Shown here one piece after another: positions 39,727-56,595 of a stretch of DNA of 64,000 nucleotides. The first letter of the stretch is position 1. Every line of letters starts with the position of its first letter. The position numbers and the translations under genes are program-made. This DNA comes from Chloroflexota bacterium (GTDB lineage: Bacteria > Chloroflexota > JAJPGV01), in assembly GCA_021325635.1 (NCBI GenBank), contig JAJPGV010000033.1:62001-126000 (forward strand), written 5' to 3'. Under the pieces are notes generated by a model that saw nothing but the letters and a program-made list of their open reading frames with translations, was not told where the DNA came from and did not search any database.

Positions 39727-41031
39727 CTAGCTCCCGGATGCCATTCCCTGGCCGCTGCTTCGCCCAAGGGGGCACAGAGCGCAGATCTTCTCGCGGCACC
39801 AGCCGTTCCACACGCGCAGCAGCGCCTGCTCCCCCGCGGCCCCGTGGAGCAGCGTAACGGCGGGGCCAAGGATTTCCCGGCGCATGTACGTCGTTGCCTG
39901 ATTGGCGCCCTGCGCGGGGAAGCTGAGGAAGGCATCCCGCGCTTTCTCGAACAGGCCAAACTGGCAGGTGGCCTGACCGTAGGCCGCGGCGAAGGGCAGC
40001 AGGACGTTGATCGCCATGGCGTCGGCTCGCTGCGGACCAACCGCGTGCAGGGCCGCTCTCCATTCGTCCCGCAGCGCCGCGGCGGCGGCAGCTCCCTGGC
40101 CGGCGCTGTCTGCGAGCGGGCTCAGCAGCTCGTCCAGCAGCCCGGCGGGCAGCAGGCGCGCCAGGCTGGCGGAGAACTGCCGGATGCGGGCTGCCGGGAG
40201 GTTGTCGGGACGAACGCCGGCGGTCTGCCAGCCCTGCGGGGCCTGCGAGGGAGGCATCAACCCTGCCCGATCGAGGGCCGAGCCTTGCGTGGAGTGCGGG
40301 GTTGTCAGACCGGCGGCCTCGCGCAGCAGCGCCTCGATGCCGGCAGCGGCCGAAGGCGAGCTGGCCGCCGATTGGAGGGCAGCCAGCGGCACCGACCGCG
40401 CCAGCTGCCGGAAGGGCGGGCAGTTGCGGCTGTAACCGAGAGCTTCGAGCAGCCCGGCATACAGCGCTTGCTCGGGAGCTGCTACTGCCAGCTCGCCTTC
40501 GAAGTGGGCCTGCTTGGCCTCGAAGCGATCGAGCGCCATGCGCCGCAAGGTAGCGGCCAGCGCCTGGGGCCGGGCATGAGCGAGCGCCCGTTTGCAGGGC
40601 GCCAGCACATATGACAGCTGGCTGGCGCACGGGCCTTCGACCGGCGACCGAGGAGCGTGAGGCTCGGCAAGGTGAGGCCTGAGGGCCACAGTCAGCACCG
40701 GCTGGCCGCGCGAATTGCGGGTGCCCCCGCCGGCATCGAGGACGGCGTGCAGAACAACCTCGTCATAGGTGGGGTCGGCGTGGTGCCCGTGCTCGTACCA
40801 CCCTCGCTCGTGCAGATGCAGCTCCACGTCGCCTCGCAGCAGGCTGCCGTTGGCCAATGCCAGGATGGCTTGCCGGAAGTCCGGTCCCGGACCACCTGGC
40901 TGGCGCCCCGGATACACCACCTGCACCGTGCGCCCATCGGTGCAGCGCAGCCGCCGGCCCTTGAAGCCCTGGCGCTGCCACAGCTCCGCCAGCCACGCCT
41001 CCCCCCGCTGGACGTCAGCAGGCGGCCGCAT
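39727..41031 (-). CDS. DUF2851 family protein
   Basis: From ATG 41031 the protein has about 434 residues. The N-terminal third shows the DUF2851 pattern: GRTVQVVYPGRQPGGPGPDFRQAIL, GDVELHLHERGWYEHGHHADPTYDEVVLHAV, with Asp, Glu and His residues spaced as in the PD-(D/E)XK-like part of the family. The C-terminal third ends with YMRREILGPAVTLLHG and a Cys-containing segment CREKICALCPLG. DUF2851 has no assigned function. The upstream ORF extension to 41187 runs through the heptamer repeat and is not considered coding. Confidence 0.8.
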   Translation of the reverse strand: MRPPADVQRGEAWLAELWQRQGFKGRRLRCTDGRTVQVVYPGRQPGGPGPDFRQAILALANGSLLRGDVELHLHERGWYEHGHHADPTYDEVVLHAVLDAGGGTRNSRGQPVLTVALRPHLAEPHAPRSPVEGPCASQLSYVLAPCKRALAHARPQALAATLRRMALDRFEAKQAHFEGELAVAAPEQALYAGLLEALGYSRNCPPFRQLARSVPLAALQSAASSPSAAAGIEALLREAAGLTTPHSTQGSALDRAGLMPPSQAPQGWQTAGVRPDNLPAARIRQFSASLARLLPAGLLDELLSPLADSAGQGAAAAAALRDEWRAALHAVGPQRADAMAINVLLPFAAAYGQATCQFGLFEKARDAFLSFPAQGANQATTYMRREILGPAVTLLHGAAGEQALLRVWNGWCREKICALCPLGRSSGQGMASGS

Positions 41032-41037
41032 CTTCAC

Positions 41038-41043
41038 AGAGTA
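41038..41043 (-). promoter_or_regulatory. -10 box (TACTCT) of the DUF2851 gene
   Basis: TACTCT on the minus strand ends 6 nt before ATG 41031. It lies just inside the left edge of the heptamer-repeat element, which therefore may supply or displace upstream promoter sequence. Confidence 0.4.
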
Positions 41044-41056
41044 GCACAGGCGTTCT

Positions 41057-41321
41057 AGCGGCCCCTCGGGCCGCTGGAACGAGTGAAGAGTGAAGAGTGA
41101 AGAGTGGGGTGCGATGCAATCGCGCCCTCTGTCCTGGACCCTCGACCCCGAACCCTTGATCCCGAACCCTCGACCCTCGACCCTCAACCCTCGACCCTCA
41201 ACCCTCGACCCTCGACCCTCGACCCTCGACCCTCAACCCTCTGTCCTGAACCCTCGACCCCGTCACTCTTCACTCTTCACTCTTCACTCTTCACTCCTTC
41301 CAGCGGCCCGAGGGCCGCTGG
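41057..41321. repeat. Composite 7-nt tandem-repeat element with opposed arms and terminal hairpins
   Basis: In order: a hairpin AGCGGCC/GGCCGCT at 41057-41075; a left arm of GAGTGAA units (three plus a partial) at 41081-41106; a unique stretch to about 41135; about 18 units of CCCTCGA/CCCTCAA type at about 41136-41261; a right arm of CACTCTT units (four plus a partial) at 41264-41296, complementary to the left arm; and a perfect 9-bp hairpin CCAGCGGCC/GGCCGCTGG at 41300-41321. All arrays have a 7-nt period. The element fills the 320-nt gap between DUF2851 and the LysM gene. It resembles in style the heptameric STRR repeats of cyanobacteria. No transposase is present. Confidence 0.9.
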
Positions 41322-41335
41322 AAGGCCATTCCTGC

Positions 41336-41341
41336 TACTAT
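41336..41341 (+). promoter_or_regulatory. -10 box (TACTAT) of the LysM gene
   Basis: TACTAT ends 10 nt before ATG 41352. It begins 15 nt after the right terminal hairpin of the heptamer element, so the -35 region would fall in that hairpin. Confidence 0.5.
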
Positions 41342-41351
41342 TCGCGCTCGA

Positions 41352-41933
41352 ATGGACGAACGCCCCGAGGGGGTTTACGCGCACGTCGATCAGCCGGCTT
41401 TCGAGCAGATGCAGATCGACCAGAGCATCTCGCGGGTGGCCATCTTCTTCGTCTGCTTCCTGACGCTGGGCGTCTTCTACTTCACCCTGGTCAACTTTCC
41501 CCTGGCCAAGCTGCTGCCTATCCAGCAGATGCAGCAGGTGGGCCAGGTGGTCAGCGCGTTGAACCCCACTTCGTCGCGATCGCCGGTGGCCACCAGCAAG
41601 CCGTCCGGGGCGCTGGGCGGGTCGCAGGCGTCGACTGCCGCGTCACCCGCCGGCTCTCCCGCGGCAAGCGTGGCGTCCGCGGCGGCGGCCGGCTCCTCTT
41701 CGGCCGCCACGTCCGCCCCAGTTTCGGTGGCCCCATTGGCCTCTGCATCCGCGCTTGCCTCGGCGGGCGCCAGTGCCGGCGCTACTGGCGGCAGCTACCA
41801 GGTGCAGGCCGGCGATACGCTGTCAAGCATCGCCCGCCGTTTCAACACCACCGTGCAGGCCTTGGCGGACGCGAACAAGATCCCTGCCAGCGGCTCGCTG
41901 CAGGTTGGGCAGCGCCTGGTTATTCCCCGCTGA
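41352..41933 (+). CDS. Membrane-anchored LysM-domain protein
   Basis: The 193-residue protein has one membrane segment (about 28-50, VAIFFVCFLTLGVFYFTLVNF), an Ala/Ser-rich linker (about 70-145) and a C-terminal LysM domain (YQVQAGDTLSSIARRFNTTVQALADANKI...LQVGQRLVIP) that binds N-acetylglucosamine-containing glycans such as peptidoglycan. It likely spans from membrane to wall. ATG 41352 has a -10 box 10 nt upstream and no Shine-Dalgarno. Its end overlaps the convergent IMPase-family gene by 14 bases. Confidence 0.88.
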   Translation: MDERPEGVYAHVDQPAFEQMQIDQSISRVAIFFVCFLTLGVFYFTLVNFPLAKLLPIQQMQQVGQVVSALNPTSSRSPVATSKPSGALGGSQASTAASPAGSPAASVASAAAAGSSSAATSAPVSVAPLASASALASAGASAGATGGSYQVQAGDTLSSIARRFNTTVQALADANKIPASGSLQVGQRLVIPR

Positions 41934-42756
41934 CGGGGCGCGGCTGGTAACGCACACCTGACCTGTTCTCGCCCGGTCGCTTGCCGGGCGGCCTAGGCTC
42001 GCCGGAGACCAGCGCCAGGAGCTGTGCGTGGATCTTGGTAGTGGACCCGCACACCAGCTGGCGTGAGTCCCAGCGCCATGGCCGGCCGGCAAAGTCGGAG
42101 ATCGTCGCTCCCGCTTCTTCGGCAATGAGGGCCCCGGCGTTGCTGTCCCAGGGCTCGATATCGTCGACCAGGTGTCCCGCCAGGTGGCCCGAGGCGAGAT
42201 AGCCGAACGTCAGGCTGGACGCCAGCACCCGCGCCTGCCACAGCCGCCTGGTCATCACCTGTTCCATCGCCCGGATGATGGTGCCCACCTGGCCGCTGGC
42301 CGGTCGGTGGCCGAAGTCGAAGTTGATGATGCCCCCGCGGTCGGTGACGGCGATTGGCTCGCCGTTCAGGCTGGCGCCCTGGCCGCGCTCCGCCACGTAC
42401 ACGTCGCCGCTGGTCCCGTCGAGCAGCACGCCGAGCACCACCTGGTCGTCCTGGACGAGGGCCACGTTGACGTTGAACAGCGGCAGTCCGGCGGCGAAGT
42501 TCCCTGTCCCGCAGATCGGATCGATCACCCAGAAGCTCTGCCGGCTGCCACTGACCCCGGACTCCTCCGCCAGGAACCCGTACTCGGGGAAGCGGCGTCT
42601 GAGGCTCTCGATGACCACCGCTTCCACCGCCAGGTCGGTGCCGGTGACGAAGTCCAGCCGCGCTTTGGGTTGGGAGTCCGAGGCCCCTGGCCGGGCCTTC
42701 AGCACAGGCAGCGCTGCGCTCACCGCCTGAATAGCGGCCTCGGTTTCTGGTCGCAT
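41920..42756 (-). CDS. Inositol monophosphatase-family protein with altered metal-binding motif
   Basis: The 278-residue product has the IMPase/FBPase/CysQ fold signatures: DFVTGTDLAVE, AEESG (Glu64-Glu65), WVIDPICGTGNFAAGLP and, near the C-terminus, EPWDSNAGALIAEEAGA. Normal family members read DPLDGTxNF, where both aspartates bind Mg2+. Here the second is Cys82 (codon TGC), while Asp79 is kept. Activity may therefore be reduced, changed or lost. ATG 42756 is chosen over TTG 42762. The substrate cannot be set from sequence. Confidence 0.85.
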   Translation of the reverse strand: MRPETEAAIQAVSAALPVLKARPGASDSQPKARLDFVTGTDLAVEAVVIESLRRRFPEYGFLAEESGVSGSRQSFWVIDPICGTGNFAAGLPLFNVNVALVQDDQVVLGVLLDGTSGDVYVAERGQGASLNGEPIAVTDRGGIINFDFGHRPASGQVGTIIRAMEQVMTRRLWQARVLASSLTFGYLASGHLAGHLVDDIEPWDSNAGALIAEEAGATISDFAGRPWRWDSRQLVCGSTTKIHAQLLALVSGEPRPPGKRPGENRSGVRYQPRPVSGE

Positions 42757-54942: not shown

Positions 54943-56595
54943 TTACACCGAGCCGGCGAGCCGGGTCCGGACTGGCTCGGCGCAGCAGAACCACGACTCC
55001 GTGAGCCGCGGCGGCTCCGGCCGGTGTGAGGCCGGGCGGCGCATGGCCGCGGGAGCAGGCAACCCAGCCGTTCGATAGGCAGCGGTCTTGACCGCCAGAA
55101 ACGTGGCCCACACGTCCCGTTGCTCGCACTCGGCCTCTTCGACGATGGCCTGGACCTGTAGGGACAGGCTATCCATGCGGTCATCGGGGTGCCGCCAGCG
55201 GTATGAGAACGCCGCGCGATCGAGCTCGCCCAGCCATTCGCGGGCGCTCTCGAGCAGGGCGGAGCCCGGCGGCACCAGCAGGCGGATAGAGTACTGCACG
55301 GGGTCGATCATCTCGACCAGGTCTCTGCCCTCGACGAACGCCAGCAGGGCGAGGTAATCGTCCAGGGTCGTCCAGGGGGTGAACGCCACCAGGGATGGTC
55401 GCAGGGGGATGTCGGCGGCGGCCATGACGTCCAGGGCTCGGGCGACGTCCTCGGCGGTGTGGCCCTTGTCGAGCCGCCGCAGCACTTCGTCGCTCAACGA
55501 TTCCACCGCCGATACGACGAAGGCACAGCCGAGCTGCTTGAGCTCCGGCATCAGCCCCGCATGGGCCAGGATGTGCTCGATCTTGATCGTCGCGTCGAAG
55601 CTCACGTCCGGAAACTCTTTGTGCATGGCCCTCGCGATTCGCAGGCTGTGCCCTGGGCCGTTCAGGAAGTCCGGGTCGCCAAAGGTGATGTGGCGGGCGC
55701 CGGAGGCCACCTGGCGGCGAATGTCGCGCAGCACCAGATCGGGCGGCAGCACGAAGAACCGGCCGTTGTAGACCGGGGTGATCGGACAGTGCAGGCAGCG
55801 ATGCTTGCAGCCTCGGCTGGCTTCGACGTAGCCGGCCGTCAGCCGCTCACCCGCTCGCATGAGCCCGGCGTAACGCTCGAGTACAGGCAGCGCCGAGCGC
55901 ACCGGCTCGGCAAAGCGCAGGCGTCGTATGTGCGGGGCGGCGTAGCGCTCCGGGTAGCGCACGCCCTCGCCGGCCAGGCGGCCCTCCTCCAGCGCCTGAG
56001 CCAGCCCCAGCAGCGGCTCCTCGAACTCCCCGCCGATGACCGAATCGGCGAGCGGTTCGGAGTCCCTGGCGGCAGAGGCCGGGGGCCGAGGGCCAGGGGC
56101 CAGAACAGAACCCATACGATGCGCGTCCGCGGTGCTCGACACCTGCCCGGCCCGCGGCCCACGGCACTCCGGACCGCTCGTTTCCCCTGCCCCCTGGCCC
56201 CTGGCCCCTGACCCCTCGAACAGATATTCCGCATTCAGCCAGGCATACAGTCCGTACACGCAGATATGAGCGTCGGCGTTCAGCTCGCGGACCCGACGGG
56301 CGATCTGCTCAGCCAGGCGGAGAGCGGTGTGCATGGGCACGGAGATGGCGACCAGCTCGGCGCCGGTGATGATCTCGTCGGCCAGCTGCTCGACGTGGGT
56401 ATCGACCGCGAGTGGCTGGTAACCGGCCTGGATCAAGCTGCCCAGCGGCGAGGCCAGGTTGAGCGGCTGATGACCCAGCTCGTAGCAGGAGATCAGCAGG
56501 ATGGCTCCGCGCCGCCGCAGGCTCGATGTAGGGATCTCCAGCGAGAGGGCCTGGTTCAGATCGTCCGGGCCGCAGCAGGCCGCCCCGGAGGTCAC
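54943..56595 (-). CDS. B12-binding radical SAM protein with C-terminal CCAEP tail, carrying a repeat-derived insertion
   Basis: From GTG 56595 the protein has about 550 residues. The N-terminal part (about 30-130) resembles a cobalamin-binding domain (ILLISCYELGHQPLNLASPLGSLIQAGY, ELVAISVPMHTALRLAEQIA). The radical SAM core has Cys-x3-Cys-x2-Cys in GCKHRCLHCPITP, then ITFGDPDFLNGP and VESLSDEVLRRLDKGHT. It ends with LTESWFCCAEP, the tail of the CUAEP/CCAEP radical SAM group, whose sister members have selenocysteine in place of the first Cys. About 55 residues between NAEYLF and ADSVIGGEFEE are encoded by a heptamer-repeat insertion. GTGA overlap with the yggX-like gene shows coupling. The reaction is unknown. 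Confidence 0.88.
   Translation of the reverse strand: MTSGAACCGPDDLNQALSLEIPTSSLRRRGAILLISCYELGHQPLNLASPLGSLIQAGYQPLAVDTHVEQLADEIITGAELVAISVPMHTALRLAEQIARRVRELNADAHICVYGLYAWLNAEYLFEGSGARGQGAGETSGPECRGPRAGQVSSTADAHRMGSVLAPGPRPPASAARDSEPLADSVIGGEFEEPLLGLAQALEEGRLAGEGVRYPERYAAPHIRRLRFAEPVRSALPVLERYAGLMRAGERLTAGYVEASRGCKHRCLHCPITPVYNGRFFVLPPDLVLRDIRRQVASGARHITFGDPDFLNGPGHSLRIARAMHKEFPDVSFDATIKIEHILAHAGLMPELKQLGCAFVVSAVESLSDEVLRRLDKGHTAEDVARALDVMAAADIPLRPSLVAFTPWTTLDDYLALLAFVEGRDLVEMIDPVQYSIRLLVPPGSALLESAREWLGELDRAAFSYRWRHPDDRMDSLSLQVQAIVEEAECEQRDVWATFLAVKTAAYRTAGLPAPAAMRRPASHRPEPPRLTESWFCCAEPVRTRLAGSV
56077..56218. repeat. 7-nt tandem-repeat element with opposed arms inside the radical SAM gene
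   Basis: Left arm: four 7-nt units of GGCCRRG type (GGCCGGG, GGCCGAG, GGCCAGG, GGCCAGA) at 56077-56104. Right arm: five 7-nt units of CCCCTGG type at 56184-56218. The arms are largely complementary and enclose a 79-nt centre. The architecture repeats that of the element at 41057-41321 with different unit sequences. It is in frame in the gene and adds a Gly/Pro/Ala/Ser-rich loop. Confidence 0.85.

Follow-up and report, generated by a model that had tools for sequence, protein, structure and literature searches.

The intergenic element at positions 41053-41325 of the window (the whole 64,000-nt stretch of Chloroflexota DNA that was analysed) is non-coding, fast-changing repeat DNA; it is neither a gene nor a fixed-body transposon. 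Intergenic 7-nt arrays of this kind form a phylum-wide class with a common layout, in which a purine arm is followed by a core and a pyrimidine arm. The order of the arms is strict. In four genomes, neighbouring opposite arrays were purine-first in 25 cases and pyrimidine-first in none, and no gap with the reverse order was present in the genomes counted. Replication slippage, fold-back template switching, and recombination between arrays are together the favoured origin of the element, with a probability of roughly 40%. The purine-first polarity must be taken as a constraint on any mechanism proposed.

The element fills the gap between two divergent genes. On its left, a DUF2851 protein (PF11013, Pfam E 9.9e-45) is encoded on the minus strand at 39727-41031, and on its right, a LysM protein (Pfam LysM E 2.9e-17) on the plus strand at 41352-41933; genes were called throughout with a simple model made for this analysis. 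All parts reported in the initial annotation, i.e., three 7-nt arrays with GC hairpins at both ends, were found in place, and the extent was corrected to 41053-41325. The element starts with a hairpin cap at 41053-41079 (TTCTAGCGGCCC-CTC-GGGCCGCTGGAA, one G-T pair in the stem), recognized from the sequence as an inverted repeat. The purine array (GAGTGAA)3.7 follows on the plus strand at 41081-41106 (TRF, 100% match), and just inside it lies a palindrome of 21 nt at 41107-41127 (GGGTGCGAT-GCA-ATCGCGCCC), visible in the sequence and in the fold and absent from the initial annotation. The central array on the plus strand (41133-41260) has a period of 7 and consists of CCCTCGA/CCCTCAA and variants. 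TRF counted 18.3 copies at 78% match, which agrees with the earlier estimate of about 18 units; only 12 of them are exact, however (CCCTCGA nine times, CCCTCAA three times), and the remainder is degenerate. The pyrimidine array (TCACTCT)4.9 at 41263-41296 (plus strand; TRF, 100% match) is an inverted copy of the left array, and the right cap at 41296-41325 (CCTTCCAGCGGCCC-GA-GGGCCGCTGGAAGG) is an inverted repeat with a perfect 14-bp stem. The complementarity noticed earlier between the left GAGTGAA and right CACTCTT units holds for longer outer arms, with half of the hairpin included: 41063-41106 and 41271-41314 are inverted copies at 43/44 positions (98%). Compared with the inverse of the right hairpin, the left one has one substitution and one additional base.

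Putative extended -10 boxes directly flank both caps. AGTAGCA at 41040-41046 (TGCTACT on the minus strand, where the candidate -10 is TACTCT; TGCTACTCT on that strand) would serve the DUF2851 gene, and TGCTACTAT at 41333-41341 on the plus strand, just outside the right cap, would serve the LysM gene; the promoter roles are deduced from sequence. The element therefore seems to occupy the space between two promoters. Neither hairpin cap is followed by a run of T, which an intrinsic bidirectional terminator (a GC-rich hairpin, then a U tract, on both strands) would have. Long open reading frames traverse the arrays in some frames (window 41090-41950 and 39727-41187), since tandem 7-nt units are translated into a peptide that recurs every seven codons, and automatic gene callers may wrongly stretch genes into the element.

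Folded as single-stranded DNA, the element reaches -77.6 kcal/mol, compared to -34.9 ± 3.5 kcal/mol for dinucleotide shuffles (z -12), which bears out the cruciform potential proposed earlier. At 18/21 lag matches, the window holds four period-7 segments and 50 dinucleotide shuffles hold none. At the stricter threshold of 19/21, only period 7 and its multiple 14 gave segments among periods 3-15 in the window. On its minus strand, the central array carries GGG every 7 nt; the GAGTGAA/TCACTCT arms have no GGG runs. A further period-7 array, CCCCTGG, lies at 56181-56218 of the window inside a called gene (gene model), and its C-rich word type also occurs in intergenic arrays of the same genome.

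That genome (G000, 96% complete) holds far more than two such cases: dozens of period-7 arrays were found, in several unit families. With tandem units of exactly 7 nt, in the 2-4 or more copies that define the class, and a spread over many intergenic sites, they fall among the intergenic heptameric tandem repeats known from Xanthomonas, Nostoc, and Chloroflexus. The word CACTCTTCACTCTTCACTC (up to two mismatches) occurs at 115 places and the CCCT family at 196, overlapping registers being counted apart, against 0 for the reversed control and 0 for the CCCT control, respectively. In the window and 20 regions of G000, 55 segments have period 7, while other periods have 0-3 except for 14, a multiple of 7. 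The unit types include CACTCTT, CCCTCGA/CAA/GAA/GGA/AAA, GGCACTC, CCCCTGG, and GCGACTA, and 50 of 60 arrays are intergenic. One complete 400-kb stretch contains only about five arrays, so the arrays are clustered (contigs C51, C44, and C30). A hot spot on C51 (L062 8000-19000) accommodates several capped inverted heptamer elements in 11 kb, and the contig ends inside an array. In another, on C44 (L063 4000-6100), a cap and array are repeated as a 34-nt unit.

Eleven complete GAGTGAA elements were recovered in G000. Their cores measure 58-191 nt and are unrelated apart from short pieces of caps or arrays. In 34 of its 35 copies, a 15-nt outer cap, GGTCGCTKCGCTCCC, borders an AGTG-type array (or a variant of one) on the side facing the gene. 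Other elements, including the one in the window, have perfect hairpins of locus-specific sequence instead. Beyond its own two caps, the window hairpin was not found elsewhere in G000, looser matches being at the level of the reversed control. At two loci (L071 9560-9750, corresponding to G000:C50 ~93600, and G033:C1 354117), arrays begin directly after an apparent terminator hairpin of the upstream gene, suggesting that they occupy signal-free space.

The polarity was counted in G000 and in G033, a 6.2-Mb genome of another family. The G-rich strand points away from the nearest gene in 44 of 50 intergenic arrays of the former and in 33 of 36 of the latter. Single arrays lacking a partner also obey the rule (15:5 and 14:2). 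It holds in convergent (36:6) and divergent gaps (36:6), at both gene ends, and in most co-directional gaps; the exception is the 3' end in ++ gaps (21:16). Pooled counts mix related genomes and treat the two arrays of a pair as separate data, which makes the p-values too small; counts from single genomes are safer. Arrays without GGG runs show the polarity at 29:4 and 29:3, compared to 15:2 and 4:0 for G4-capable arrays. The polarity depends neither on GGG runs nor on how the neighbouring genes are oriented.

Simple causes of the polarity were considered and rejected. Avoidance of false Shine-Dalgarno sequences as the sole cause does not fit its presence in convergent gaps, which have no start codon nearby. 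A general G/C skew of the gaps fails because array-free gaps show none in that direction. A conserved RNA stem on the sense strand is contradicted by folding energies that are alike for sense and antisense (26/50).

In the phylum, a pattern fixed beforehand, (AGTGNNN)3-N10-40-(CACTNNN)3, was compared with the reverse order in 400 genomes. For the purine-first order there were 216 forward matches, spread over 12 genomes from nine families. This figure includes overlapping registers (the loci are fewer), and 102 of the matches come from G371, the richest genome found and the first choice as a model genome. The reverse order gave 0. For GTGA/TCAC words, taken from the backward-read controls of the same searches in the 400 genomes, 62 matches were purine-first and one was pyrimidine-first. 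The scope of this test is one tetramer word and inter-arm gaps of 10-40 nt, and the window element, with its longer gap, is not among the matches.

The units themselves vary. The exact unit CACTCTT occurs in only 3/400 phylum genomes and was thus rejected as a phylum marker, unit sequences being lineage-specific. The generic pattern CMCTNNN has matches in 12 of the 41 genomes searched, G000 included; the relatives carry other units, often as inverted pairs. In 360 kb of G033, 36 intergenic period-7 segments and one genic segment were detected, with the units TATGYTC, TCATCCY, GACTTYT, CATAGCC, and CCCTNRH; the other intergenic tandem repeats number 13 at period 14, five at period 9, and one at period 20. 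The earlier remark that unrelated unit families share the period and the opposed-arm layout thus applies genome-wide and phylum-wide, and a common generating mechanism, as it had proposed, is plausible.

Among the phylum genomes searched, the best relatives of G000 are Sphaerobacter MAGs, which marks it as Chloroflexota-like, and none close enough for an empty-site comparison was found. Turnover was followed in G033 and G101, sister genomes of ~95% nucleotide identity. Length changes above 5 nt affected 92% of 39 array-bearing gaps compared to 18% of 142 array-free gaps. Both arms of one gap can adopt new words together (gap 4019). Across all gaps of the pair, k-mer sharing within a gap exceeded orthologue-swapped sharing 14:4 (p 0.012). 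It did not surpass the match to loci elsewhere in the same genome (p 0.87), so that support for concerted change of the arms is modest. A profile of unit variability per position was discarded, as the phasing step biases it. Some gaps of the pair (e.g., G033:C1 337303-337535) contain 9-nt modules of the type GAAGAACGC ... CTTCGTGTT beside the 7-nt arrays. Fixed phrases (CACGAATTG, ACGCAGAGGCGCAGAG) also recur there; together with the 9-nt modules, they too appear purine-first, and the gaps resemble shuffled phrases. At G033:C1 324615-327031, one gene is present in three tandem copies, and two of the gaps between the copies have heptamer arrays that are nearly identical; these natural duplicates could serve to date changes in arrays.

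In the favoured explanation, slippage of replication in 7-nt steps would create and edit each array. The nascent purine-rich arm would be displaced, fold back and be copied into the opposite arm, which would make the arms and hairpin caps near-perfect inverted copies. Template switching at quasi-palindromes is known from general bacterial genetics. Recombination among dispersed arrays would then carry shared words to many loci with the orientation kept. Slippage at a 7-nt step was already proposed in the literature, as cited in two earlier studies (PMC4692102, PMC4679880). Several observations count for this explanation. Period 7 dominates the intergenic tandem repeats, and the frequent length changes in array-bearing gaps, together with the modest arm concert, point in the same direction. 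As the arms match at 43/44 positions and the hairpin is confined to one locus, local inverted copying of the two ends is a simpler account than their import, and the unrelated cores favour it as well. An enzyme dedicated to the process, of the reverse transcriptase or Y1 transposase kind, is unlikely, since G000 has no RVT_1 domain and a Y1 transposase is not consistently present. Nevertheless, other observations count against slippage with fold-back copying. Slippage leaves the presence of one unit at dozens of loci unexplained, and the spread of words would need recombination. The purine-first order (25:0, 216:0, 62:1) is predicted neither by slippage nor by textbook quasi-palindrome correction, and an extra assumption is needed: displacement would preferentially affect the nascent purine arm, or, alternatively, selection would remove the other order. 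Finally, the polarity of partnerless single arrays is not given by fold-back copying alone.

A selected function is a less likely alternative. The arrays would act as a bidirectional transcription guard, in which RNA from either side passes the purine arm before the pyrimidine arm, and read-through into the next gene is stopped. Transcription would be ended at the 3' arm by a hairpin with a weak pyrimidine-RNA:purine-DNA hybrid or by a C-rich Rho site, and the reverse order would favour R-loops. Hybrids between pyrimidine RNA and purine DNA are expected to be weak. Such a guard fits the direction-neutral polarity, shared by 5' and 3' gene ends and by convergent, divergent, and most co-directional gaps, and its independence of GGG runs. 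It also agrees with the position of the window element upstream of both putative -10 boxes and with the relatively high frequency of arrays in convergent gaps of G000 and G101. However, this convergent enrichment is absent in G033, folding energies show no preference for the sense strand (26/50), and the turnover of any one array is very rapid. The purine arm of a perfect element would mask a Rho site by pairing with it. A pure Rho version is further weakened by cyanobacteria, which according to one source have no Rho (PMC13289151), and yet the Nostoc heptamers share the orientation preference (PMC4692102). The literature on the spacing of Rho binding sites yielded nothing usable. A G-quadruplex or i-motif element, as proposed for the heptamers of Xanthomonas and Nostoc, is a very improbable explanation here. 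The minus strand of the central array has the four GGG tracts expected of a G4, and the G-rich heptamers of Xanthomonas do form G4 in vitro (PMC4692102). In contrast, the GAGTGAA arms have no GGG, arrays incapable of G4 keep the layout of the capable ones, and the phylum-wide polarity counts rest on AGTG/CACT pairs. G4 as a general cause is thus largely refuted, and it may act locally.

Mobility would fix the polarity trivially, if the arrays were the terminal inverted repeats of a mobile element, either MITE-like or mobilized by a RAYT/IS200-type Y1 transposase. The recurrence of the arms and of the conserved 15-nt outer cap at many loci, on the gene side in nearly all copies, and the hairpin nature of the caps in the window are compatible with this idea. 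It is nonetheless improbable. The cores of the 11 elements are unrelated, the window hairpin is unique in G000, and target duplications were not seen by eye. The polarity is common to six or more unrelated unit families across many genomes, for which a single founder element cannot account. A fixed-body transposon or MITE was rejected as no related internal sequence is found between copies. The RAYT-like nuclease suggested in the initial annotation did not materialize: a single weak Y1_Tnp match (31.9 bits) was found in G000 and none in the array-rich G033. With the transposase weak or absent and the hairpin not shared between loci, a RAYT/REP origin was rejected. Templated addition of heptamers to 3' break ends by a telomerase-like activity, followed by end joining, would reproduce the layout of head-to-head telomere fusions. 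The purine strand does enter the gap 5'→3' from both sides, and units such as TTGAGGG look telomere-like. This origin is hardly credible, as no RVT_1 domain was detected in G000 (96% complete) or G017, and a unique core of 58-191 nt is not expected between joined ends. The chance of an assembly or sequencing artefact is practically negligible. Some contigs (C51 and C19) terminate in arrays, and assemblers therefore struggle with them, but many independent genomes show the layout, and several genomes show it at orthologous gaps.

Few long simple repeats in bacteria are as abundant as the heptameric ones. Here, non-G4 heptamers form nested, capped, inverted composites with a near-single orientation in the genomes tested. 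As non-G4 arrays obey the polarity, G-quadruplex formation is removed as its general reason, and the polarity becomes a sharp quantity that mutational or functional models have to reproduce. A broader reading would be that inverted heptamer arrays in bacteria have a near-absolute, strand-symmetric purine-5' polarity independent of unit, G4 capacity, gene orientation, and lineage. A single unrecognized process would then shape intergenic DNA throughout the phylum and probably also that of Xanthomonas and Nostoc; the candidates are polar synthesis of DNA by fold-back and selection for barriers that stop transcription from either direction. We place this reading just short of an even chance.

Among known systems, REP/BIME elements with RAYT share intergenic, dispersed palindromes and inverted pairs with the arrays described here, which have no consistent RAYT. 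REP elements are not 7-nt arrays. The STRR sequences of heterocystous cyanobacteria (Calothrix and Nostoc), named earlier as the nearest analogue, also have tandem 7-nt units and several unit families per genome. Their unit type, CCCCA(A/G)T (the complement of GGGGA(C/T)T), and their cyanobacterial host differ from the units and phylum found here, and inverted capped composites are not reported in what is accessible on them (via PMC4692102). STRR alone is too narrow a comparison; the nearest described analogues also include the Xanthomonas and Nostoc heptamers rich in G (PMC4692102) and, from Chloroflexus aurantiacus, the (GATAGRA)n satellites (PMC6749651). The latter, described in 2019, come from the same phylum and form a heptamer family at many sites of a single genome; the unit differs, and the accessible part of that report mentions no inverted composite or polarity. 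The TAACTGA repeats of marine Beggiatoaceae share the period of 7, the intergenic location, and the occurrence at many loci. They have one conserved unit, repeated in direct orientation apart from one inverted case, and often lie immediately ahead of start codons (PMC4679880). Together with the Chloroflexus satellites, they show that heptamers occur widely.

The G-rich heptamers GGGAATC/GGGANTN of Xanthomonas and GGGGA(C/T)T of Nostoc were described by Rehm et al. (2015; PMC4692102). Like the arrays of this study, they are intergenic and dispersed, with a period of 7, degenerate units, and a length that varies between species. Convergent G-rich pairs were counted in two Xanthomonas (70 and 75 cases), and the G-rich array lies nearer its 5' neighbour gene, which is the polarity seen here (PMC4692102). 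In that work, every unit has GGG, the repeats are treated as G4 DNA, and the orientation is left without explanation (PMC4692102). The heptamers and convergent G-rich pairs of Xanthomonas and Nostoc are thus already known, with a polarity for G4 units only. In contrast, the element of the window has arms without GGG, nested unit families, hairpin-capped ends, and a polarity that does without G4. The new features are these non-G4 arms, the nesting of unit families within hairpin or 15-nt caps, and a near-exceptionless order over many lineages.
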